From NCBI RefSeq assembly GCF_000969885.1, contig NZ_CP009501.1:124001-188000 (forward strand): 64,000 nt of DNA, given 5' to 3'. Positions 7,684 through 23,551 of this stretch are shown in pieces. Position 1 is the first letter of the stretch, and every line of letters begins with the position of its first letter. Source of the DNA: Methanosarcina thermophila TM-1. Its GTDB lineage: Archaea; Halobacteriota; Methanosarcinia; Methanosarcinales; Methanosarcinaceae. The notes beneath the pieces were generated by a model. The model did no database searches. It was not told the origin of the DNA and saw only the letters and a list, made by a program, of their open reading frames with translations. The translations under genes and the position numbers were made by a program.

Positions 7684-8042
7684 ATTCCAGTGTCTTCAGT
7701 TCTTTTGCCTAGGTCTTTCGTGAGGAGATGGACACTACGTTCACAAAATATGTATTTCAACTTAATAAAGTTTATTCGATATTTTCAATACGCAGGTACA
7801 GAATTCATACAAAATACTAAGTCCTAAAATGGCTTTTACTAAAAATTACACATCAATGAAAGAGGTTCCTGTAAGTTTTTGTGCCTGAGCATTTTGATAT
7901 ATTAATTCAGCCTTGGTTTTCCGGAATGCTTCCTCTTAATAAATGACCTTAGATTCTTTTATGTTCATATTCGCTGAATATAAAATTAAATAATTAAATA
8001 TTGAATTTATGACCTGGGGATTAACGTTTTTCAAATGAATAA
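7643..8042. promoter_or_regulatory. divergent intergenic region, moxR operon / surface protein
   Basis: This 400-bp AT-rich region must hold promoters for both the minus-strand moxR operon and the plus-strand surface-protein gene. TATA-like stretches are abundant (for example ATATAAAATTAAAT near 7978-7991), so I cannot choose the true box. No small gene was recognised. Confidence 0.4.
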
Positions 8043-10502
8043 ATGGGGAAGAGACTGGTGAATATTAACAAAAGATCATATTCGATAGCTTTAGCCTCAA
8101 TAATCTTATTTTTTCTGTTTTCTATTTTATTTCCAACCGTAGCGTCAGCGGCGCAGATAATAAAAATTGGCAATGGGACTGATCCTGCCGTTCATGGGAA
8201 CAAAGTGGTATGGACAGACAACGGTGTTATTCATGTTTATGACCTGACCGCCAGAACAGACACTGCAGTTGACTCTTCTGCAGCATCTCATCCAGCTATC
8301 TATGGAAATAAAATAGTGTGGCATGATATGAGTAGCGGGACACCAAAGCTTGCGATATACGATATTCCTACAGCTACAAAAGATTACATAACTCAGAATG
8401 TAGACCAATATAGCAAACCTGCTATTTACGGCGACAGAATCGTGTGGAGTGCGGATTACAACGAGACAAGCTACAATTATAATGTATACATGTGGGATAT
8501 GTCAACTTCTACACTGACTAAAATTGCGGAGGGCAATAGTCCTGATATATACGAGACCAAGATAGCGTATGGTTATGATGGTGACTATGGGCGAAACATT
8601 GTTGTTTATGATGTTAATACTAAGGAGACCATAAATGTACATTATTCCGATCAGGTATTCAATCCGCATATATATGGTAATAAAGTGATGTGGTCAGACT
8701 TCTTTAACAGAGATGGATACATCCAGATGTATGACCTTGAGACTAAAGAAATTATAGACGTTACCAGTGACCATACAGGTAATACTTTATACGGATCTGA
8801 TTATGCTGATGCTGGAGCTGACACTGGCACCCACCCCAATATCCATGGTGACAAAATCGTATATTCAAAATCCGGTGATGACCAGTTTGGTTATGCGGGT
8901 GTATATATTTATGACATTCCTTCTGCAAAAAGCACTCCGGTCTATATTTATCCAAAAGGGACTCACACAACACCTGATATTTACAATAATACGATTGTGT
9001 GGGGGATAGACAGTAACTATGGTGCAATTAATGATACTGGCATCTATATCTATGATCTTTCTGTCACAAACACCTTGCCACCTGTAGCTGAATTTGCTGC
9101 AAACACAACCTATGGAGCTGCACCTCTAGTAGTGTTATTCATCGATACCAGCACTGGCGGAGTACCGACCTCTTGGATTTGGGATTTTGGGGACGAGATT
9201 TACTCAAAACATGCTATGAATGCAACCCACACGTTTACAAAACCAGGGAACTATACAATCAGTCTGACTGTGGGAAATGAAGCAGGTAATAGTAAAGTAA
9301 TGAAACCAAATTACATTGTCGTTACTAATCCATTTCCAGTTGCAAACTTCAGTATCAACGCTACCCATGGTTATCCTCCTCTCTCAATTCAGTTTACTGA
9401 CCTTTCACAAAATGCAACTGGATGGTGCTGGGATTTCGGAGATGGGAATAATTCTACACAAAGGAACCCAGTTCATGAATACACAGATCCAGGAATCTAT
9501 TCAGTTAATCTGACAGCAAGCAACGAAAATGGTACAGATTCAAAGTTAACTACAATAACAGTAATGCAGCCATTCGGTGTAGGTCCATTTGCTTATATTG
9601 CGAACTCCGGCGACAATACTGTATCAGTAATTGACACGGCTACTAATAACGTTACAGCCATAATTCCTGTAGGAAACTATACCATGGGAGTTGCAGTCAG
9701 CCCGGATGGAAAAAAGGTATATGTGACTAACTTTTTCGACAGTACTATATCTGTAATTGACGCAGCAAAAAATAAAGTTACAGCCACAATTCCTGTAGGA
9801 AACGCTCCTCGCGGAGTTGCAATAAGTCCGGATGGGAAAAAAGTATATGTTCCACATACCGATGTGGGAGCTCCCAGCAACAATATGATTTTTATTATAG
9901 ACACGGCTACCAACGAGGTTGAAGCCACAGTGCTTGTAGGCGTAGTTCCTTTTGGAGTTGCGGTCACACCGGATGGGAAAAAGGTGTATGTGACTAATCT
10001 CGATGATAAAACTGTCTCGGTAATTGACACGGCAACAAACACTGTTATAGCTACAATTCCTGTAGGAAACAATCCTCGTGGAGTTGCAATAAGTCCAGAT
10101 GGGAAAAAGGTATATGTAGCGTGCGACGAAGGAAGCAATAACGGATATATCTATGTAATTGACGCAGTAAAAAACAAGGTTACAGCCAGAGTACCTGTAG
10201 GGGAATTTCCTTCTGAAGTCGCTGTCACACTGGATGGAAAGAGTGTATATGTGACTAATGGTCTTAGTAACACTATATCTGTAATTGATGCAACAAAAAA
10301 CAAAGTTACAGCCACAATTCCTGTAGGAAATAGTCCGAGTGGAGTTGCTGTTACACCGGATGGATCATGGGTATATGTTACTAACTACGCCAGCAATAAT
10401 GTTTCTGTAATTGACACATCAACAAACAAGGTTACAGCAACTATGAATGTAGGACGTAGTCCTAATTCCTTTGGGCAGTTCATAGGTTCTCTCCAAGCGT
10501 AA
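8043..10502 (+). CDS. secreted beta-propeller/PKD/YVTN surface protein
   Basis: The 819-aa product starts with a signal peptide ending near TVASA. An N-terminal region of TolB-like repeats (repeated IYGNKIVW/IHGDKIVY motifs, about 40-350) follows. Next come two PKD domains (WDFG motifs near 380 and 465). Seven or so ~42-aa YVTN repeats (VSPDGKKVYVTN) complete it from about 515 to the end. Such proteins coat Methanosarcina cells. The ORF ends at a TAA (10500-10502) directly followed, in the same frame, by codons resembling another PKD domain. The original protein was therefore probably longer. GTG at 8058, preceded by GGGGAAGAG, is an alternative start. Confidence 0.85.
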   Translation: MGKRLVNINKRSYSIALASIILFFLFSILFPTVASAAQIIKIGNGTDPAVHGNKVVWTDNGVIHVYDLTARTDTAVDSSAASHPAIYGNKIVWHDMSSGTPKLAIYDIPTATKDYITQNVDQYSKPAIYGDRIVWSADYNETSYNYNVYMWDMSTSTLTKIAEGNSPDIYETKIAYGYDGDYGRNIVVYDVNTKETINVHYSDQVFNPHIYGNKVMWSDFFNRDGYIQMYDLETKEIIDVTSDHTGNTLYGSDYADAGADTGTHPNIHGDKIVYSKSGDDQFGYAGVYIYDIPSAKSTPVYIYPKGTHTTPDIYNNTIVWGIDSNYGAINDTGIYIYDLSVTNTLPPVAEFAANTTYGAAPLVVLFIDTSTGGVPTSWIWDFGDEIYSKHAMNATHTFTKPGNYTISLTVGNEAGNSKVMKPNYIVVTNPFPVANFSINATHGYPPLSIQFTDLSQNATGWCWDFGDGNNSTQRNPVHEYTDPGIYSVNLTASNENGTDSKLTTITVMQPFGVGPFAYIANSGDNTVSVIDTATNNVTAIIPVGNYTMGVAVSPDGKKVYVTNFFDSTISVIDAAKNKVTATIPVGNAPRGVAISPDGKKVYVPHTDVGAPSNNMIFIIDTATNEVEATVLVGVVPFGVAVTPDGKKVYVTNLDDKTVSVIDTATNTVIATIPVGNNPRGVAISPDGKKVYVACDEGSNNGYIYVIDAVKNKVTARVPVGEFPSEVAVTLDGKSVYVTNGLSNTISVIDATKNKVTATIPVGNSPSGVAVTPDGSWVYVTNYASNNVSVIDTSTNKVTATMNVGRSPNSFGQFIGSLQA

Positions 10503-11025
10503 CCAATATTTGCTGTTGCATATTTTATTACCGGCGTTACCAGAGGTTATGCTCCTCCGGCTGTCCAGTTTATAGGCTATCGGAAAATGTAGTGTCAAAG
10601 AGCTGGGATTTCAGTAATGATGGAATTACTGACTCTGCAAAAATGAATCCAGTTTATGAGTTCGTAACTCAAGGAAATTATACTGTTAATCTGACAGTAA
10701 AAAATGTGAACGGTGCAAATTCAAAACTTGCTACAATAAATGTACTGACAAAAAGCAACTCTAGCGGTGGAAACAGCGGTAGAAACTTTGGTGGAAGCAG
10801 TGGAAACAGTGAAAACAGTGGAAACAATCACAAAAGTGGCGGCATTGGAGGAGGTTCTCCTGAAACTGTAAGGAATGTCCAGGTCAAGGAACTTTTGCAG
10901 GCATTTATTACAGGTGGAAAGCCTGTAAAATTTGATTTCACAAAGAATGCAACCTATGTTGTGTATGGATTGCTTGCAGACTTCTGTATAAAAAAGGTAA
11001 AATCCAAAGTTAGTGTAAAAAAGAG
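10503..11025 (+). pseudogene. decayed C-terminus of the surface protein (PKD plus PGF-pre-PGF)
   Basis: After the TAA the same frame reads GYAPPAVQF, the start of a PKD domain. A frameshift near 10570 moves the reading to another frame, which continues with SWDFSNDG, GNYTVNLTV and, after a Ser/Gly/Asn-rich linker, KELLQAFITGGKPVKFDFT. That last segment resembles the PGF-pre-PGF domain near the C-terminus of Methanosarcina surface proteins. The coding sequence is cut at the tRNA-Leu fragment starting at 11026. A single C-to-T change (CAA to TAA) would explain the premature stop. Confidence 0.65.
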
Positions 11026-11076
11026 TGCGACGGGTGGGATTCGAACGCACGAACTCCTACGAGACTAGACCCTGAA
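11026..11076 (-). repeat. tRNA-Leu(CAG) 3'-fragment, candidate attachment-site copy
   Basis: These 51 bp match the 3' 51 bases of the intact tRNA-Leu at 15057-15107, in the same orientation, with two mismatches (11031 and 11037). The match runs from the discriminator base through the T arm and variable arm into the anticodon, then stops. A truncated tRNA copy at the far edge of a DNA segment next to the intact gene is the usual footprint of integration into a tRNA gene. Confidence 0.8.
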
Positions 11077-11077
11077 A

Positions 11078-11422
11078 CCAGCAATAATACCTGATAAAAA
11101 TTTGAGATATGCTCAGGTTGTCAAAAATAAGCAAGGAAAGAAGCTTCAAAAATTAGAAAAAAGGATCATCTTTGGTCAAAATATAGATCAAGATAAAATA
11201 TCAACAAGTTTACTTGAGAGACAGAACCTGACTTTTAGACAGGACTATAATAGGATTTCAAGAAAAACAATAGGATTTTCAAAGGACCTAAAAAGCCTGT
11301 ATAATCAAATGAGGCTTTACTGTACTCATTTTAACGTCTGTAGAGATCATAGAGGATTAACAAAAAAAGGAGAAGGGAATTCTGGAAAAGAAAACATCTG
11401 CATAAGAGTCTGGAATCACTAA
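11078..11422 (+). pseudogene. IS1-like transposase, C-terminal fragment
   Basis: The reading frame is open from the end of the tRNA fragment (codons for PAIIPDKN precede the TTG at 11102). It contains LLERQNLTFRQD, FSKDLKSLYNQ and YCTHFNVCRDHRGL, which resemble the C-terminal catalytic part of IS1-type DDE transposases. The N-terminal half is missing, so the ORF is a fragment cut at the putative island edge. It cannot encode a working transposase. Confidence 0.65.
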
Positions 11423-11512
11423 AAAGAAATGGAGATTAACAGAGCTGTTAAATTACAGGTGTCAAAATATCAACTGATTAATTAGAGAGCACCAAGGTCT
11501 ATCTTAATCAGA

Positions 11513-12877
11513 TTAAAGCCAGTGATTTATCTCTGACCATAATTCGGCAGAATTATTGTCCAGTAATATACTGGCGTGTCCCTGGTCGTTCCAGCTAATG
11601 GAAGTAACCTTCTTGTTTGTTTTTCCAACCTCATTTTCATACCACCAAGAACCATAATCGCTAAATCCTCCTCCGAGTCCAACATAAAGAACTGGAGAGT
11701 CTATTTTGGAAGAATCAATTTCATACCCTTCCACATTACCCATCAGACCAGCCATATATTGATCCATATATTTTGGAGTGTAAGGGACAGCTCCCCCGTT
11801 CAAGGTGATGTCGAGTAACCGGCTCTCATCAACATAATAAAGGCCGTTGATATCTCCGCTCCAGTAATGATAATCTGGAGTATATGGGTATAGAGAAAAA
11901 CTATATGTCTGGCTGGCCAAGAGCCTGAATAACTGGATATTTGTGAGCCCAGCTCCAGAGCTTCCCACTGGATTTGAGAAAGCATTGTAAGCTATCTGCA
12001 TCATAACTGCCATGCCAGTACCTTGATACTCCCCTTTATCGATACTGCTGGATATAATATCATATTCCTGTGCCTGACTCTGTATTAATTCAGAATATTC
12101 AGGATTATATTTAATGATAATATCAACAGGCACTATTTTGTCAACAGATCCCAAGGGCAAATCATCGTAATCACTTGCCTCATAAGCTGTAAGAAGCAGT
12201 GCCCCATGACTGTGGCCGATTGCCATAACTTTTATGTTTTTTGCAGGCTTACCGCTTAATAAAGATGTATGGTTTCTTGATTCAGCAATACCTTTGTATG
12301 TGTCCTTCAGATGTTCATCAACAGTCCAGCTTTCCATGAAACTGAAATCGTCTTCATTTGAAGGGATATTTGTCTCTCTCCTATCCAGAATATATACACT
12401 ATATCCCTGTTGAGCGTAATATATCGCCAGATCTGAATAGAACTTTTCAGTCAAACCCTGTCCGGGAAGAATTACCAGATTTTTATTTGCATTTGTATGC
12501 CAGGGACTTTTCTCCTTCACATAGTTGGTAAGAATGATATTGTCATATTCTCCAGGTCCAACGGTTACCTTAATTTTATATTCTGCCACGTCCCCGGAAA
12601 CAAGACCAATTCTATCGTCTCCTGTGAAAGACAGATCTGATTTTGAATTAGCAAACAAAGAAGGATCATATGAAATCCCCAACTTACCTGACAGGATGTC
12701 ATTATCACCTTGCATATCAGGAATTACGGCTGAAACCGGAAGAGAAACTGATAGCAGAACCAAGAAAGCAGCTATTAATAGTGTCAACATTTTTACGTTC
12801 TTACTTCTATGAGGCGTTAAACACACAATTGGAGCTGCTGTCGTTAAGGCTGATGAATGTATTTTTTTAGTTTTCAT
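11513..12877 (-). CDS. secreted alpha/beta hydrolase
   Basis: The 454-aa protein has a hydrophobic export segment around residues 30-50 (LLIAAFLVLLSVSLPVSA) after a 29-residue lead; Met30 is an alternative start. The nucleophile elbow is GHSHG, with Ser223. A GQGL segment near 140 may form the oxyanion region, and DQGHASILLDN near the C-terminus offers the catalytic His. An acid such as that in GGFSDYGSW may complete the triad. It is an extracellular esterase or peptidase-like hydrolase of unknown substrate. AAAGGA lies about 9 bases before the ATG. It appears to be the only intact gene of the island. Confidence 0.75.
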   Translation of the reverse strand: MKTKKIHSSALTTAAPIVCLTPHRSKNVKMLTLLIAAFLVLLSVSLPVSAVIPDMQGDNDILSGKLGISYDPSLFANSKSDLSFTGDDRIGLVSGDVAEYKIKVTVGPGEYDNIILTNYVKEKSPWHTNANKNLVILPGQGLTEKFYSDLAIYYAQQGYSVYILDRRETNIPSNEDDFSFMESWTVDEHLKDTYKGIAESRNHTSLLSGKPAKNIKVMAIGHSHGALLLTAYEASDYDDLPLGSVDKIVPVDIIIKYNPEYSELIQSQAQEYDIISSSIDKGEYQGTGMAVMMQIAYNAFSNPVGSSGAGLTNIQLFRLLASQTYSFSLYPYTPDYHYWSGDINGLYYVDESRLLDITLNGGAVPYTPKYMDQYMAGLMGNVEGYEIDSSKIDSPVLYVGLGGGFSDYGSWWYENEVGKTNKKVTSISWNDQGHASILLDNNSAELWSEINHWL

Positions 12878-13297
12878 ACTAAATTTTCCTTTCTCTGTAG
12901 TTTATTTTTCATATTAAAAATGTTAATATCCAAAGCCTCTCGTAAATTTTTAAACTTTCTCTTTTGAATCAAGCCTTTATAAAAATACACAAATGTGATT
13001 TAATATATTTAATTATCAATATGATTATAAAAATCAGATCAAAAAAATAGGGAATTTTGCACAAAAAATAAGGGTTTTATATTGAAAATTAAATAAGCTT
13101 AGAAAAGTTGAGAAATTAGACAGTTAAGTTAGTAATAAATGGAAGTGATACCGTGCAGTGTCTAGTTATAACAAGATGAATTATTTTGAGGCAGTCTCTT
13201 CAGAATAAGAACTGGTAAAAAATGAAATACAGGGAAATGACGAAATTAGTCTCTAAACAGTTCAAAACCATATGTTTAAGTGGTTTTACTCTATCTT
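12878..13297. other. AT-rich intergenic region
   Basis: This 420-bp stretch lies between the DUF3006 relic and the hydrolase gene, both on the minus strand. It is very AT-rich and should contain the hydrolase promoter. I see no open frame, RNA fold or repeat worth naming. Confidence 0.5.
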
Positions 13298-13571
13298 TCA
13301 GTTCTTATTCTTAAGCTTCTCAAGCAAACTTGATACTATTTCCTTTGTATCTTTTATCTCTTGAACATCCCTATCAATGGTAATATTCAGATATCTCCTT
13401 CCTTACTTTCAGGAGGTAATAAAAAAGAGGGCTTTAAGGAGGTAATAAAAAAGAGGGCTTTCAGGAGGTAATAAAAAAGAGGGATATTAATTTTAACTGT
13501 TTCTTCATCCCTCACAAGCAAGACCGCAGTATCTTCTTCGATCCTGTCTAATGTAACTTTAAAATTCTCCG
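13298..13571 (-). pseudogene. DUF3006 protein gene disrupted by tandem repeats
   Basis: On the minus strand the codons read TENFKVTLDRIEEDTAVLL, then VRDEETVKINIPLF, a DUF3006 start. After three repeat copies they continue LLPPESKEGDI and hit TGA. In the next frame the protein resumes as LNITIDRDVQEIKDTKEIV and ends LEKLKNKN followed by TGA. The gene therefore has a 1-base loss near 13389 plus a repeat insertion, and its expected ATG reads ATA. Its position after the MBL/lamin-tail gene is, as I recall, the normal partner order in Methanosarcina. Its native role is not known. Confidence 0.7.
13411..13483. repeat. 2.8 copies of a 26-bp tandem repeat inside the DUF3006 relic
   Basis: The unit begins AGGAGGTAATAAAAAAGAGG. 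Copies lie at 13411-13436, 13437-13462 and 13463-13483 (partial) and differ by one base. Because 26 is not a multiple of three, each copy is read in a different frame on the minus strand. Confidence 0.9.
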
Positions 13572-13574
13572 TTA

Positions 13575-14634
13575 TTATCTCTCCAGCATGGAAACAAGTT
13601 TTTCGGCATTATCATAAAGATACGCAATATCTCCATCATTGTTCCATACATGCGCATTTTCCGATCTTCCCCAATACAGTGTATTTGCAGTGTTTGTGCC
13701 TTTTCCACTATAGAGAGTCACTGTATTCTTAGGTTCTAAGGTATAAGAAGACGGGAAAGAATATGTATGCTTCGCATCTTTGTCTTTAATTTTCCAACCT
13801 TTCATATTTACTGATGTTGTTCCTTTATTTGTAATTTTAACATATTCTTGATTTGCTGTTTGATGAGGAGCACCGACATTAAATCACTGATATAAAGTGA
13901 GTTAGATGCACTGCTCGTGTCAGTTATATCTGATTTCTTTGAATCTGGTGCTGTAACTTGTACCTTTGCCGGTTCAGATGTTGATGTTTCTGTCGGTATT
14001 ACTTCACTTGTTTCTGTCGGTGTTGTATTAGGACTTACATATGGGGTATCAGATTTCTGAGTAGTTACTGTATAAGTAGACCCATCTGTTGTAACCGTAA
14101 TTGTGCCATTTAAGTCTGTTCTGTAAACTTTCGAAGTCGCCTGCAATCTCTCAAGAACTTCAGCATCAGGATGTCCGTACTCGTTTTCTGCTCTAACTTC
14201 AATAACACTTACTTCAGGACTTACAGTCGAAATAAAGGTTGATCCACTGCCAGATTGGCTTCCATGATGTCCTACTTTGAGAATATCAGAATCCACATCG
14301 TAACCAGCTTTCATTATGTTTTCTTCAGTCTCCAAACCTGCGTCGCCCATGAGCAGGAAAGAAATGTCCTCATAATTTATTTTGAGAACTACGAAATTTT
14401 CGTTCAGCTCGTCGGAGTATGTAGTTCCAGGGTTCAGGATCTCAATATCAACATCAGGATCAAAATCAATTTTATGACCGGCCTGAGCTATTTCAAAAAG
14501 AATGTCTTTCTGGTCAATTATGGTCAGCATATCTTCATATGTCTGAGTTGTATGAGCATATCCACTGTCAATGAAATGATCAATTTTAAAGCCATTTATA
14601 ATATCGCTCATACCACCAATATGATCACTCTGAG
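13575..14634 (-). pseudogene. ComEC-like metallo-beta-lactamase with lamin-tail domain, frameshifted
   Basis: The main ORF (13808-14611) covers the C-terminal half of a metallo-beta-lactamase fold (LLMGDAGLE, VGHHGSQSGSGSTF) and a Thr/Ser-rich linker. A one-base loss near 13880-13883 breaks the frame. In the next frame the protein continues VGAPHQTANQEYVKITNKGT into a lamin-tail domain (KGWKIKDKD, LYWGRSENAHVWNNDGD), seen as the ORF 13575-13805. At the 5' end, codons for SDHIGG remain just before the ATG. A TGA and unrelated sequence then replace the rest of the THPHxDH metal motif. The protein lacks most metal ligands and is dead. Confidence 0.78.
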
Positions 14635-14896
14635 TTCATTGGAAAACAAAAAATTAGACTTGTAGGTCTAGGGGTTTCAAGGCTAAGGGAAAGAGACATG
14701 AGGCAGACTCTGATTACGGACTTTGTATAGGATATCCTGAATCTGGCTTAGAAGTCCACTACAAGCCTGTGACTATCTTCTAGGATGTGGAAAATATCTT
14801 TGGCTTCAATCATAAACTAAGTATATAAGGCCGAACAAGAGAGAAGCAAGAAGAAAACATGTATAATCTTTCTACGGAATATAGAAAAAAAACTGA

Positions 14897-14985
14897 TGCG
14901 AGGGGTGGGATTCGAACCCATGAAATCCTTCGATACCAGATCTTAAGTCCGGCATCTTTTACATACTTTCTTACCGCAACTCCAC
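14897..14985 (-). pseudogene. tRNA-Leu(TAA) relic
   Basis: Read on the minus strand, 14952-14897 forms a good tRNA 3' half. It has an anticodon stem CCGGA/TCTGG with loop CTTAAGA (anticodon TAA), a long variable region, a TTCGAAT T-loop, CCCTCGC and discriminator A. The 5' half (about 14953-14985) keeps only traces such as TTGC and AAAAGATG, and does not form the acceptor or D stem. A functional tRNA is unlikely. Confidence 0.7.
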
Positions 14986-15056
14986 AAAAGAGCAAATGAA
15001 TTAATAATTAAGCAAAAAAGTAACTGAAAGAAAATTAATTGATTAAAAAGAAATAG

Positions 15057-15141
15057 TGCGAGGGGTGCGATTCGAACGCACGAACTCCTACGAGACTAGA
15101 CCCTGAATCTAGCGCCTTTGACCTGGCTGGGCAACCCTCGC
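15057..15141 (-). tRNA. tRNA-Leu (anticodon CAG)
   Basis: The 85-base sequence folds fully. The acceptor is GCGAGGG/CCCTCGC, the D arm is GCC...GGC with AGCCAGGTC, and the anticodon stem is CTAGA/TCTAG with loop TTCAGGG (anticodon CAG). A class II variable arm CTC-GTAG-GAG follows, then T stem GTGCG/CGCAC with loop TTCGAAT and discriminator A. CCA is not encoded. Its 3' 51 bases recur at 11026-11076, which marks it as a probable integration target. Confidence 0.95.
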
Positions 15142-15372
15142 ACGATATAGCTTATGTTGCAGCAGCAATAGTAGTGCTCTTTGTTCTTATACTTTTTCCT
15201 TGAAAGCCTGTTCGGAGGGCGAAATTTGTCCGAACTTTTTTAATAATTCTTTTTTCCGTGTATAAAGTTTAACCAGTTTTAAACTTTACTCTTTAAGCTT
15301 ATACTCAAAAAACAGGAGGCGAAAAACCTTTTCATATCTATAAATTATAAAAAGTTGGGATTGATGAAATTT

Positions 15373-16281
15373 TCATCTCATCAATTTCAGGATAAGGGCT
15401 TTTTGCGCATGCAGGCGGTTTTCGGCTTCCTCGAAAATTACGGAGTTTGGTCCGTCCATAACGTCATCCGTAATCTCAAGCCCGCGCCTGGCTGGGAGGC
15501 AGTGCATAACTATTACATCCGGTTTTGCGACCTCGAGGAGTTCGGTATTGACCTGGAATTTGGCAAAGTCCTTCAGGCGCTTCTCCTGTTCGGCTTCATC
15601 ACCCATTGAGACCCAGACATCCGTATAGATAATATCGGCATCTTTTGCAGCAACTTTTGGGTCGTCTGTAATTATGAACTTTCCTCCGAGGGTTTTTGCT
15701 TTCTCAAGGAACTCAGCTTTTGGCTCATATCCCTTTGGGCAGGCTGCAGCAAATTCCATTCCCATAATAGCCGAACCAAGCAGGGCAGAATTGCAAACAT
15801 TGTTTCCGTCTCCCACCCAGGCGAACTTCAAGCCTTCGAATTTCTTTTTGTATTCCATTATTGTCATGAAATCGCCCAGAATCTGGCAGGGGTGTTCCAG
15901 ATCCGAAAGTGCGTTGATGACGGGTATTGTTGAGTATTTAGCTAACTTCTCTACAGTTTCGTGTTTCATAACTCTAGCCATAATTCCATGAAGGTAGCCT
16001 GATAGGGTCCTGGCAGTATCTTCAATAGTCTCTCCTCTTCCTATCTGGATATCCCTCGAGTTAAGGTATAGGGCGTGTCCCCCAAAGTCGGTCATTGCAA
16101 CCTCAAAAGATACCCTGGTTCTTGTGGAAGATTTCTCGAAAATCATCCCGAGGCTTTTGTTCTTCAGGAACTCTGTAGGTTCTCCTGCCTTGCGTTTTGC
16201 TTTCAGGTCTGCGGCCGATTCGAGGAGCTCATAGATCTCCTCTCTGGTTAGGTCAGTTATTGAAAGTACATCCTTCTTCAT
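15373..16281 (-). CDS. argF: ornithine carbamoyltransferase
   Basis: The 302-aa enzyme transfers a carbamoyl group from carbamoyl phosphate to ornithine, giving citrulline in arginine synthesis. It has the carbamoyl phosphate loop SSTRTR (51-56), HPCQ at 130-133, and HCLPARRG near 260, where the Cys-Leu-Pro motif marks ornithine rather than aspartate specificity. Length and motifs are complete. The ATG at 16281 is preceded by GGGGTTGAAG. The neighbour purD, on the same strand, is 177 bp upstream and probably has its own transcript. Confidence 0.97.
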
Positions 16282-16458
16282 CGCTTCAACCCCGACATTA
16301 TTCTAGCAAAGCTACTCCATTCTAGCTAAATTTGCTTCATTCTGGCTGAACTTAAACTTTATATTACTGCTATAGTACTTATTTGCACGCTGTATATCTG
16401 CAGGACTTTTTCAGGCATTTAACAAAATTTTCAGGAGGTTTGCCTTATTTTCAAGAGG

Positions 16459-17760
16459 TCAGCCCCTGAGTTCTTTCATATGGTCAATTCTCTTCTGGAT
16501 AAGAGCAGCAGTTCCAATATCTCTCCGGAAGAATAGCTTTCCGTGGAGGTTCTCAAGGGCGTTCTGGGCAATCTTTTCGGCTTCAGCTATAGTTTCTGCA
16601 ATCCCGACTACTGCAATTGCACGGGAAGTAGTTGTGTAAATTTTTCCTTCTTTTTCATAGACGCTGGCATAATAGATGGAAGCTTCCCCTATATCTCCTA
16701 CAGTTACCTCGCTGTCCTTCTCAGGTTTATCAGGATAACCAGCAGGAACTGCATATTTACACACAGTTGCTTTTTTACTGAAGCTTACAGGCAAATCTCC
16801 AAGGGTACCATTAACCACTGCAGACATAATCTCCACGAAATCGGTCTCAATCAGGGGAATTACATTCATAGCTTCGGGGTCGCCGAATCGCGCATTAAAT
16901 TCCACGACCTTGGGACCGCTGGCTGTAAGGATAAACTGCCCATAGAGCACGCCCTGATACCCGGTTCCTGTTTCCTCGTAAAGCGCCTTCACGGTATCCT
17001 TCATGATTTTCTTTGCTTTTTCAAGGTCGTCAGGAAGCATAAAAGGCAGGAGCTCTCCGGCGTCGCTATATGAACCCATGCCGCCTGTATTGGGTCCCAC
17101 ATCTCCCTCATAGGCTCTTTTATGATCCTGCACGGCAGGGAAGAAAACAAGGCTCTTTCCGTCCACAAAGGCCTGAAGTGTGAATTCCTCTCCTATAAAA
17201 CGCTCCTCGATAACTACAGGTCCCTTCTCAAGAAGCTCGCTTGCATAGGCTTTAGCAGCTTTAAGATCAGGAAGCTGATCTCCCATGACTTTTACACCTT
17301 TGCCCCCTGTCAGGCCTGAGGGTTTTACCGCCACATCGCCAAGTTTTTCTATGAAAGCATGCGCAGGGTTTTCCTCTGTGAAAACCTCATAGGCAGGGCA
17401 GCCTTCAATTCCGTATTTTTTCATGAAATTTCTTGCCCAGGCTTTGTCAAATTCTATAATTGCACAGGCTTTTTTAGGTCCTACAACCGGAATTCCGGCT
17501 TCCCAGAGGGCATCTGCAGCTCCTGCTGCAAGGGGGGCTTCGGGACCTATGAAAGCCATTTCGATATTTTTGGCTTTTGCATACTCAACGACTTTCTCAA
17601 TTTCAGTTTCCTTCTCAAGGAGAAAATCCTCACAAAGAGCGGCAATTCCGGGATTTTTTCTCGCCATTAACGCATAAAGGGAGGGTTTATGCTTGCTTTT
17701 CTTGATTCCTTCGGCGATTGCATGCTCCCTTCCGCCTCCACCGATAAGCAAAATTTTCAT
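16459..17760 (-). CDS. purD: phosphoribosylamine-glycine ligase
   Basis: The 433-aa ATP-grasp enzyme joins glycine to phosphoribosylamine in purine synthesis. Visible marks are the N-terminal [15 protein letters not shown], the ATP-grasp region [31 protein letters not shown] and the metal-binding [10 protein letters not shown]. It is full length and single-domain, not fused to purM or purN. The ATG at 17760 follows CAGGAGAATAAAG, a clear ribosome site. Regulation is not visible. Confidence 0.97.
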
Positions 17761-18190
17761 CTTTATTCTCCTGTTTTAAAAAGATTCTTTTTACATTCAA
17801 GTATAAGTATGGTTTCAATATGTACTGATATAAGGTGAAATAGATGAGATAAGAAAAAGGTAATGAATTTCAGTCCTCAAAACCTTTCAATGCTGCTTTA
17901 TACGCTGTCTCTTTTTATTGATAATTTGTTGGCAATTTAACTAAATACATTTAGTAAGGAATGTACTGAAGGACTTCCTAATTCTCTATTTCTTCTAATA
18001 AATATCTTGTCATTGTCAGGCTTTAAATCCAACTAATAATTTTCCTTTTTGAGATCGATTTCATATTTTTATTCCAATTTTTTCCAATAATAAAAAATTC
18101 ATTTTCTCCTAACCGAATACCCGGTTTTTCTTAGGAAGGTGAGAACACGTACTTTCTTTTAGATAAAAACCCAATTTTTATAAAGTAATA
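17761..18190. promoter_or_regulatory. divergent intergenic region purD / CMD gene
   Basis: This 430-bp AT-rich spacer separates divergent genes and must contain both promoters. TTTTTATAAAG at 18174-18184 is a TATA-like box, but it lies too close to the 18191 start unless the downstream ATG at 18212 is used. Nothing else is recognised. Confidence 0.4.
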
Positions 18191-22089: not shown

Positions 22090-22772
22090 TTTCAAATCTC
22101 CTACGATTTTTCAGGTTTGCAACATAGTTGGTATAGATCTCCTCGAGCAGACTTGTCTCTGTCTTCTAGAGATGTATATCCAGTAATTATAATGATTTTA
22201 TGTTTTAATTAATTTTTTGGTTAACGATGAATGGTTAACATATTTAATTTTCCATATCAATGTCTGTTACTATTCTAAATATCGACTCCGATCATGGTTA
22301 ACGTTGAACCTGATATCATTCGAAAAGTTGACAAAAAATATCTGGGATTGAATTATTAAATATAACAAACAGTACATTTTTTCCAAGATTTTATATTTTT
22401 TGGAAGTTCGGACAATAAAATATTTACTTCAAACTCAAAACAAAAAACTTTAATACATGTTTAGTTGGAAGATCAGAACTTCCAGAGAGCAGAGAAAGAA
22501 GAGGAAAGTGTTAAAAGAAATTAGCAAGAAGGCAAAAGAGATTAGCAAGCAAGAAAAAAATTAGTAAGAAAGAAAAAGAAATTAATAAAAAGGGTGGAAA
22601 ATCGATAAAAATAAGAATATCAAAAATTATACTAATTCAACTATTTTTTGGCGTAATTGAATTACAACTCAATCTGCCTGAGTGCAACCATTGAGCTTAA
22701 ACCGCTGCGACGCTTGACCACACCGTTGCTGCTTGGGGTTTTCGCTCAAGCCTTTTTTGAAAAGGCTTGTGA
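22090..22772. other. intergenic region with purine-rich tract
   Basis: The 683 bp between the small-gene pair and the tRNA cluster hold a strongly purine-rich stretch (about 22490-22610) of degenerate AGAAATTAGCAAG units. A dispersed hairpin repeat copy lies at 22691-22771. No gene was recognised. The AT-rich left part should include the promoter of the 43-aa/SAMP operon. Confidence 0.5.
22691..22771. repeat. dispersed hairpin repeat, copy B
   Basis: The copy contains CGCTTGACCACACCGTTGC, GCTTGGGGTTTTCGCTC and the hairpin CAAGCC-TTTTTTGA-AAAGGCTTG. It ends directly at the 3' side of tRNA-Gly copy 1 and could act as its transcript terminator. Confidence 0.75.
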
Positions 22773-22844
22773 TACATCAGCCGGGATTCGAACCCGGGTT
22801 CGAGCGTTGGCAACGCCCGGTGATAACCGCTACACTACTGATGT
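22773..22844 (-). tRNA. tRNA-Gly (anticodon GCC), copy 1
   Basis: The 72 bases fold with acceptor ACATCAG/CTGATGT, anticodon loop TTGCCAA (GCC), T stem CCGGG/CCCGG with TTCGAAT and discriminator A. CCA is not encoded. It is the third gene of a Val-Phe-Gly transcript. Confidence 0.95.
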
Positions 22845-22851
22845 ACTCTGG

Positions 22852-22923
22852 TGCCCAGACCCGGATTCGAACCGGGGACAACTGCCTCTTCAGGGCAGCG
22901 CTCTCCCACTGAGCTACCTGGGC
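22852..22923 (-). tRNA. tRNA-Phe (anticodon GAA), copy 1
   Basis: The acceptor is GCCCAGG/TCTGGGC, the anticodon loop CTGAAGA (GAA), the T stem CCCGG/CCGGG with TTCGAAT, and the discriminator A. CCA is not encoded. Only 7 bases separate it from tRNA-Gly. Confidence 0.95.
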
Positions 22924-22995
22924 AGGCAAAATTACTATTTAATTATGAATAGTAACCTGTTTTTTACTTTCCAGAAAATCTCCGGAATTTTTGAG

Positions 22996-23069
22996 TGGGC
23001 CCGCTGAGATTCGAACTCAGGACCTCCGCCATGTCAAGGCGACGTCATAACCATCTAGACCACGAGCCC
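22996..23069 (-). tRNA. tRNA-Val (anticodon GAC), copy 1
   Basis: The acceptor is GGGCTCG/CGGGCCC, the anticodon loop TTGACAT (GAC), the T stem CTGAG/CTCAG with TTCGAAT, and the discriminator A. CCA is not encoded. It is the first gene of the trio on the minus strand. Confidence 0.95.
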
Positions 23070-23129
23070 TTTATGTTTGATTTTTTTTGCCAGGAACTCT
23101 TTGCCCGGATATTTATCTTTTAAAAAGAT

Positions 23130-23251
23130 TTTTCGCTCAAGCCTTTTTTGAAAAGGTTTTTGATCAAACTTTTTTCTAAAAAGTTTGCGCTCAAGCAGTT
23201 TTTTGAAAAGGCTTGTGAAAAGTGCCCCGTCCTCCCGAGACGGGACTCGGG
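23130..23251. repeat. dispersed hairpin repeat, copy C, with GC-rich module
   Basis: TCGCTCAAGCC-TTTTTTGA-AAAGG is followed by two degenerate copies, then by the GC-rich CCGTCCTCCCGAGACGG. The perfect hairpin CCCGAG-ACGGGA-CTCGGG is at 23234-23251. The 17-bp GC-rich core recurs inverted near 63133-63149. The whole lies between the two tRNA trios. Confidence 0.75.
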
Positions 23252-23254
23252 TGA

Positions 23255-23326
23255 TACATCAGCCGGGATTCGAACCCGGGTTCGAGCGTTGGCAACGCCC
23301 GGTGATAACCGCTACACTACTGATGT
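23255..23326 (-). tRNA. tRNA-Gly (anticodon GCC), copy 2
   Basis: The sequence is identical to the tRNA-Gly at 22773-22844, offset by 482 bp, with the same fold and anticodon loop TTGCCAA. Confidence 0.95.
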
Positions 23327-23333
23327 ACTCTGG

Positions 23334-23405
23334 TGCCCAGACCCGGATTCGAACCGGGGACAACTGCCTCTTCAGGGCAGCGCTCTCCCACTGAGCTACC
23401 TGGGC
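23334..23405 (-). tRNA. tRNA-Phe (anticodon GAA), copy 2
   Basis: The sequence is identical to the tRNA-Phe at 22852-22923, offset by 482 bp, with anticodon loop CTGAAGA. Confidence 0.95.
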
Positions 23406-23477
23406 AGGCAAAATTGCCATTTAATTATGAATAGTAACCTGTTTTTTACTTTCCAGAAAATCTCCGGAATTTTTGAG

Positions 23478-23551
23478 TGGGCCCGCTGAGATTCGAACTC
23501 AGGACCTCCGCCATGTCAAGGCGACGTCATAACCATCTAGACCACGAGCCC
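23478..23551 (-). tRNA. tRNA-Val (anticodon GAC), copy 2
   Basis: The sequence is identical to the tRNA-Val at 22996-23069, offset by 482 bp, with anticodon loop TTGACAT. A TATA-like box lies about 60 bp upstream at 23608-23620. Confidence 0.95.

Follow-up and report, generated by a model that had tools for sequence, protein, structure and literature searches.

Genomic islands that integrate into tRNA genes are recognised by the tRNA gene rebuilt through the insertion and by the fragment that is displaced in the process. As outlined in the description of Islander (PMC4383910), such tDNA islands fall into classes with the crossover in the anticodon loop or in the T-stem, and an integrase is required for their identification. 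Partial tRNA genes left by integration are presented as common in prokaryotes in the account of PYG1 from Pyrococcus yayanosii (PMC9897764), an archaeal island of 21.4 kb located between a partial and a complete tRNA-Gln gene with 44-bp direct repeats. Closer to the genome studied here, casposons of Methanosarcina mazei can use tRNA-Leu-like sites, according to the outline of that system (PMC10359463). Here we describe a region of 4 kb bounded by leucine-tRNA sequence in a stretch of 64,000 nucleotides (hereafter the window), which represents positions 124,001-188,000 of a single-contig Methanosarcina genome of 3,127,379 bp. With high probability the region is what remains, without an integrase, of an element that entered a leucine tRNA of this locus, very likely tRNA-Leu(CAG), in its 3' half. 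As such it is an ordinary, decayed example of the known tRNA-island framework.

Boundaries of the island and the empty site

The right edge of the island is formed by an intact tRNA-Leu(CAG) gene on the minus strand (15056-15141, ARAGORN), which is the presumed target and stands where the original prediction had placed it. At the left edge lies the displaced 3' half of this tRNA (11025-11076, minus strand), the far copy of the attachment site, which begins at the anticodon loop, continues to the 3' end and has two mismatches. An ungapped comparison of 11025-11075 with 15056-15106 gives 49 identical bases out of 51 in the same orientation, exactly as had been claimed. Against the whole genome the left copy is matched with E = 3.2e-20. 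Other 51-mers of the window score lower: a third tRNA piece at 14896 reaches 40/51, and unrelated tRNAs come next with 31/51. The length of the direct repeat is 51-52 bp. Its boundary coincides with the anticodon loop of tRNA-Leu(CAG), so that the repeat indeed reaches the anticodon.

This layout is that of the tDNA islands in the Islander description (PMC4383910): an intact tRNA and a same-orientation fragment are found at opposite ends, the fragment is a 3' piece downstream of the tRNA, and the crossover belongs to the anticodon-loop class. There are two differences, as the window island has no integrase gene and would consequently fail the Islander filter, and a piece of another isoacceptor is present inside. 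The latter piece (R0) derives from the 3' part of tRNA-Leu(UAA), covers tRNA positions 23-85 with 94% identity to the genome's own gene (14897-14959, minus strand) and is separated from the intact tRNA by a spacer of about 96 bp (14960-15055). The original prediction described a layout with two repeats: the CAG pair holds, but R0 was overlooked. PYG1, as portrayed in its description (PMC9897764), is comparable by its tRNA layout; both the tRNA and the host are different.

An empty site is present in genome G022, the closest of the relatives compared and the sister of the window genome in the argF tree (grouped with support 100/100). In G022 the surface-protein region (window 7867-11082) directly joins a single intact tRNA-Leu(CAG), and on the other side of the tRNA the sequence continues as window 15047-18047. 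When the flanks of the window are joined computationally they align with G022 as one piece (379 columns, 91.6%). This is the relative with one repeat copy that was proposed as a check on the prediction, though R0 and the spacer are missing there too.

The left flank, outside the island, contains a PKD/beta-propeller surface-protein gene (8043-10502, plus strand) and the relic of a second copy (10592-11024, plus strand), which stand in the same order beside the tRNA in G022. Since the relic in G022 also terminates next to the intact tRNA, the island does not account for its abrupt end; here the original prediction was mistaken. The genes of the island were not found beside the tRNA of a relative lacking the repeat: the hydrolase homologue near the tRNA in G034 lies outside the repeats which that genome possesses. 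Also, there is no wider tRNA duplication that accounts for the left copy.

Insertions and integrases at tRNA-Leu(CAG) across the genus

We compared 28 distinct genomes (31 rows, of which L048, L020 and L023 duplicate G042, G034 and G044) at the argF-tRNA(CAG) locus and found downstream 3' pieces of leucine tRNAs at 14 of the 28 loci. Thirteen of these were detected within 0-20 kb of downstream DNA, which makes the count a lower bound, and G023 was added by following its integrase 30 kb away. One of the 14 (G033) is based on a 72% match, and three loci with an internal or 5' piece downstream (G030, L025 and L036) were excluded. At 18 named loci with the tRNA (including the window; two more loci are without it) there are 17 3' pieces in 129 kb downstream against none in 200 kb upstream, while 0 of 24 pieces lie on the opposite strand. 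Three 5' halves occur upstream among these loci. As pieces shared by descent are not independent, there were fewer events than these counts suggest. The 5' boundaries fall within 7 nt around the anticodon loop for 12 of the 17 pieces (p = 5e-5, simulation); before G023 was included, and using the raw BLAST start for the window, this was 8 of 14 (p = 0.016).

An integrase (PF00589) was found inside the island in two, G020 and G023, of the 13 genomes with pieces that were searched (all but L028). In the 17.8-kb element of G020, the integrase gene begins about 64 bp away from the far copy; further genes specify a D5 primase-helicase and Hma-type defence. In the G023 element (30 kb) the orthologous integrase is located at the same place, so that both lie about 60 bp from the far piece, and it is 91% identical to that of G020 (89% for the primase-helicase). 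Their common core consists of a 371-aa integrase, the D5 primase-helicase, a 94-aa gene (92 in G020) and a 147/154-aa gene. What the window island shares with this family is the orientation and an attachment site that begins in the anticodon loop of tRNA-Leu(CAG) and extends to its 3' end. Unlike the window island, however, both elements retain the integrase, the primase-helicase and the two small genes; those looked for are absent from the window island. Over 53 positions the far copy of G020 is identical to the native half of the tRNA in G042 and G044, but differs from its own near copy at 5. By these sequences G020 shows the half-exchange directly: the current tRNA has a foreign half, and the native half is displaced.

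The association with leucine tRNAs extends to related integrases. All six integrases that are at least 61% identical to that of G020 have a leucine-tRNA 3' piece nearby, starting at position 31-34 (CAG in two cases, UAA in four). No tRNA-Leu 3' piece was found beside any of six more distant integrases examined, nor at 29 unrelated control loci, searched with two of the four leucine tRNAs as queries (a thirtieth control was the window itself and was excluded). Integrases at L208-L211 (G029, G030, G036 and G038) are 61-77% identical to that of G020 and lie beside UAA-type pieces, so that the isoacceptor targeted seems to vary within the subfamily.

The original claim of integration into a tRNA gene is thus supported by the empty site in G022 and by independent islands of the same geometry, two of which have an integrase by the far copy. 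In the window, a tyrosine integrase of the G020/G023 subfamily, and not of another, would have cleaved within the anticodon loop and connected the tRNA 3' half of the element to the 5' half of the host, whereby the old host 3' half would have been displaced to the far end (11025-11076). The integrase gene was presumably lost through deletion. The site belongs to a hotspot spanning the genus, at which such elements have accumulated, been excised and decayed.

Other islands at tRNA-Leu(CAG) contain type III restriction-modification (L020), a NACHT protein (L023), a histidine kinase (L048) or a transposase (L024), and no PF00589 integrase was found in these four. Known or likely anti-phage genes are present in three islands: Hma in L146 (G020), the restriction-modification system of L020 and the NACHT protein of L023, the last without a PADLOC match. 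With a small gene that is 90% identical to one of G020, L020 looks like a reduced version of the G020 element. The 2.8-kb island of L048 (6674-9551) comprises one histidine-kinase gene without an integrase, and is apparently recent given its repeat, which is identical over 52 bp.

Some additional observations concern the same tRNA. Its 5' halves (positions about 1-39/46) are found some 40-110 bp upstream of the intact gene, mirroring the 3' pieces, at L022:11137-11182, L024:10550-10591 and L027:11118-11159, and also in G020, G024, G025, G030, G036 and G039. A near-identical protein of 106/109 aa is encoded beside the far tRNA piece at L023:16338-16658 (without Pfam match) and L030:12177-12506. 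Finally, a 13-kb island of G025 (L150, G025:C1:1426100-1446000) with a UAA-type piece as boundary encodes Cas1, a B-family DNA polymerase and an HNH-like protein, and is likely a casposon by its gene content.

Contents of the window island

The G+C content of the island is 36.1%, against 41.5% for the window. Its first feature is the relic of an IS1-type transposase gene (11074-11450, plus strand), which had been predicted to start at the left copy and does so: the first part is missing, and the homology begins at the anticodon-loop boundary with three bases (GAA) common to the end of the tRNA copy. An intact open reading frame (ORF) of 454 aa follows (11513-12877, minus strand). It is weakly alpha/beta-hydrolase-like (Hydrolase_4, below cut-off) and has homologues in 21 of 30 genomes, including the window genome, but none in G022. 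Beyond three tandem copies of a 26-bp repeat (13406-13483) lies a broken gene in two frames without its start (13575-14611, minus strand). One part of it (13808-14611, minus strand) resembles metallo-beta-lactamases (MBL) by weak matches, the other (13575-13805, minus strand) is a lamin-tail domain, and longer paralogues are found elsewhere in the same genome. We rejected this gene as a defence gene, as its PADLOC matches are weak and were read as shared MBL folds. The remaining sequence (14612-14827) consists of scraps, one of which (14629-14724) has single matches in many Methanosarcina genomes, while another (14733-14795) is a repeat abundant in G028. Directly outside the 3' end of R0, 70 bp (14828-14897) resemble the sequence immediately 3' of a tRNA-Leu(GAG) in G023 and of a tRNA-Leu-like relic in G025.

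No tyrosine integrase (PF00589) is found in the window, in line with the predicted lack of one in the island, and the whole-genome search gives two only, at 1,120,414 and 1,626,716. Running tblastn with the G020 integrase yields nothing in the island, which consequently lacks the integrase asked for by Islander. The same applies to the primase and 154-aa gene of G020/G023 (the 94-aa gene was not searched for), and the sole extra result of the search for relics of these genes is a primase match at chance level (E 0.15), elsewhere. Integration of SSV-type (suicidal) elements splits the integrase gene and leaves remnants at both ends. This type of element was rejected given that PF00589 has no match in the window. 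The idea that the far copy recombined with an attachment-like sequence within the IS1 gene, and that the integrase was lost in this way, is not supported either: the IS sequence at the junction shows no greater resemblance to tRNA than other parts of the gene do, since 152, 254 and 526 of 1412 positions in three homologues score equally well or better. Casposon insertion was dismissed as well. Methanosarcina casposons, as characterised in the summary of that system (PMC10359463), use 14-bp target sites and the Cas1 enzyme, whereas the repeat of the window island is far too long and none of the six ORFs scanned encodes Cas1.

Outside the island, the sequence upstream of purD (17761-18190) is 94.9% identical to L048 over 430 bp against 71% to the sister G022, which suggests a local exchange with the L048 clade. 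Further on, a Gly-Phe-Val tRNA cluster is present as a tandem duplicate (22771-23551), with similar repeats in relatives.

Competing histories of the locus

The combination of R0, spacer and tRNA-Leu(CAG) also occurs in L028, L048 (G042), L020 (G034) and G023. Because these genomes represent both main groups of the argF tree, the unit looks old and its absence from G022 a loss. The islands of L048 and L020 have the unit on one side and the tRNA on the other, while that of the window is situated beyond R0. Several points weigh against a plain insertion at tRNA-Leu(CAG) by a member of the G020/G023 family. Such an insertion would leave the spacer and R0 beyond the far copy, as in L048 and L020, but not as in the window. 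The T-arm mismatch of the left copy is the same base as in R0, a weak indication given that it concerns one base. That the transposase relic starts exactly at the boundary has no confirmed explanation. Moreover, because the core genes searched for are missing, and with no integrase relic present, the island is a decayed remnant identified as a family member by its attachment site alone.

It might be argued that the last insertion took place in R0, by an element with a CAG-like attachment site, and that the site in G022 results from a later deletion between the two CAG copies instead of never having been occupied. We regard this as a possible but doubtful history. The R0-spacer-CAG units of L028, L048, L020 and G023 look ancestral and their lack in G022 derived, in L028 and L048 the surface-gene flank is followed by R0, at the position taken by the left CAG copy in the window, and the T-arm base agrees. 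On the other hand, a crossover near the 3' end would be required, whereas most other copies end at the anticodon loop. In addition, the R0-spacer sequence of the window is closest to L048 (82.7%, against 65-69% for L028, L020 and G023), which contradicts the argF tree. This suggests an import from the L048 clade, though the stretches are short and do not settle the date of the insertion. The element may have entered at R0, or R0 may have arrived on an imported piece, as the 70 bp beyond R0, with their likeness to leucine-tRNA flanks in G023 and G025, would also suggest; a single insertion at tRNA-Leu(CAG) may be too simple a history for the window.

Explanations without an integrating element fare less well. 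Partial duplication through homologous or illegitimate recombination among leucine tRNA genes would fit their 85-97% likeness over most of the length, and R0, coming from a different isoacceptor, shows that pieces do move between them. We nevertheless consider it improbable in view of the constant orientation and side of the pieces, their common anticodon-loop boundary, the gene content that differs per island and the integrase found next to the far copy of two islands. Least plausible of all is that transposons built the region and the tRNA piece is incidental. The transposase relic starting at the left copy and the repeat-like scraps at 14733-14795 could be read in this way, but the relic is cut within the gene rather than at the end of an insertion sequence (IS), and it is the only one of its kind. 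Inverted IS ends accompanied by target duplications were not seen at the two edges in a search that was not exhaustive, and transposition does not yield a 51-bp same-strand half-tRNA copy or the precise junction in G022. Another thought, which we hold to be rather unlikely, is that integrase-less islands such as those of the window and L048 are non-autonomous units moved in trans by leucine-tRNA integrases, with attachment sites swapped between isoacceptors.

Insertion of an element at the leucine-tRNA 3' half, followed by decay, is therefore the reading that we prefer for the window. Titles and abstract openings of the open-access literature on Methanosarcina islands and tRNA-Leu gave no description of the hotspot, which is no proof of absence. 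To the known framework of tRNA islands our analysis adds this hotspot, the linked integrase subfamily and the question of the role of R0. Overall, the results reveal a hotspot of insertion in methane-making archaea, found throughout the genus, in which islands came and went at one tRNA, several of them with anti-phage genes. The hotspot is tied to one integrase subfamily, a connection that can be tested in laboratory Methanosarcina.

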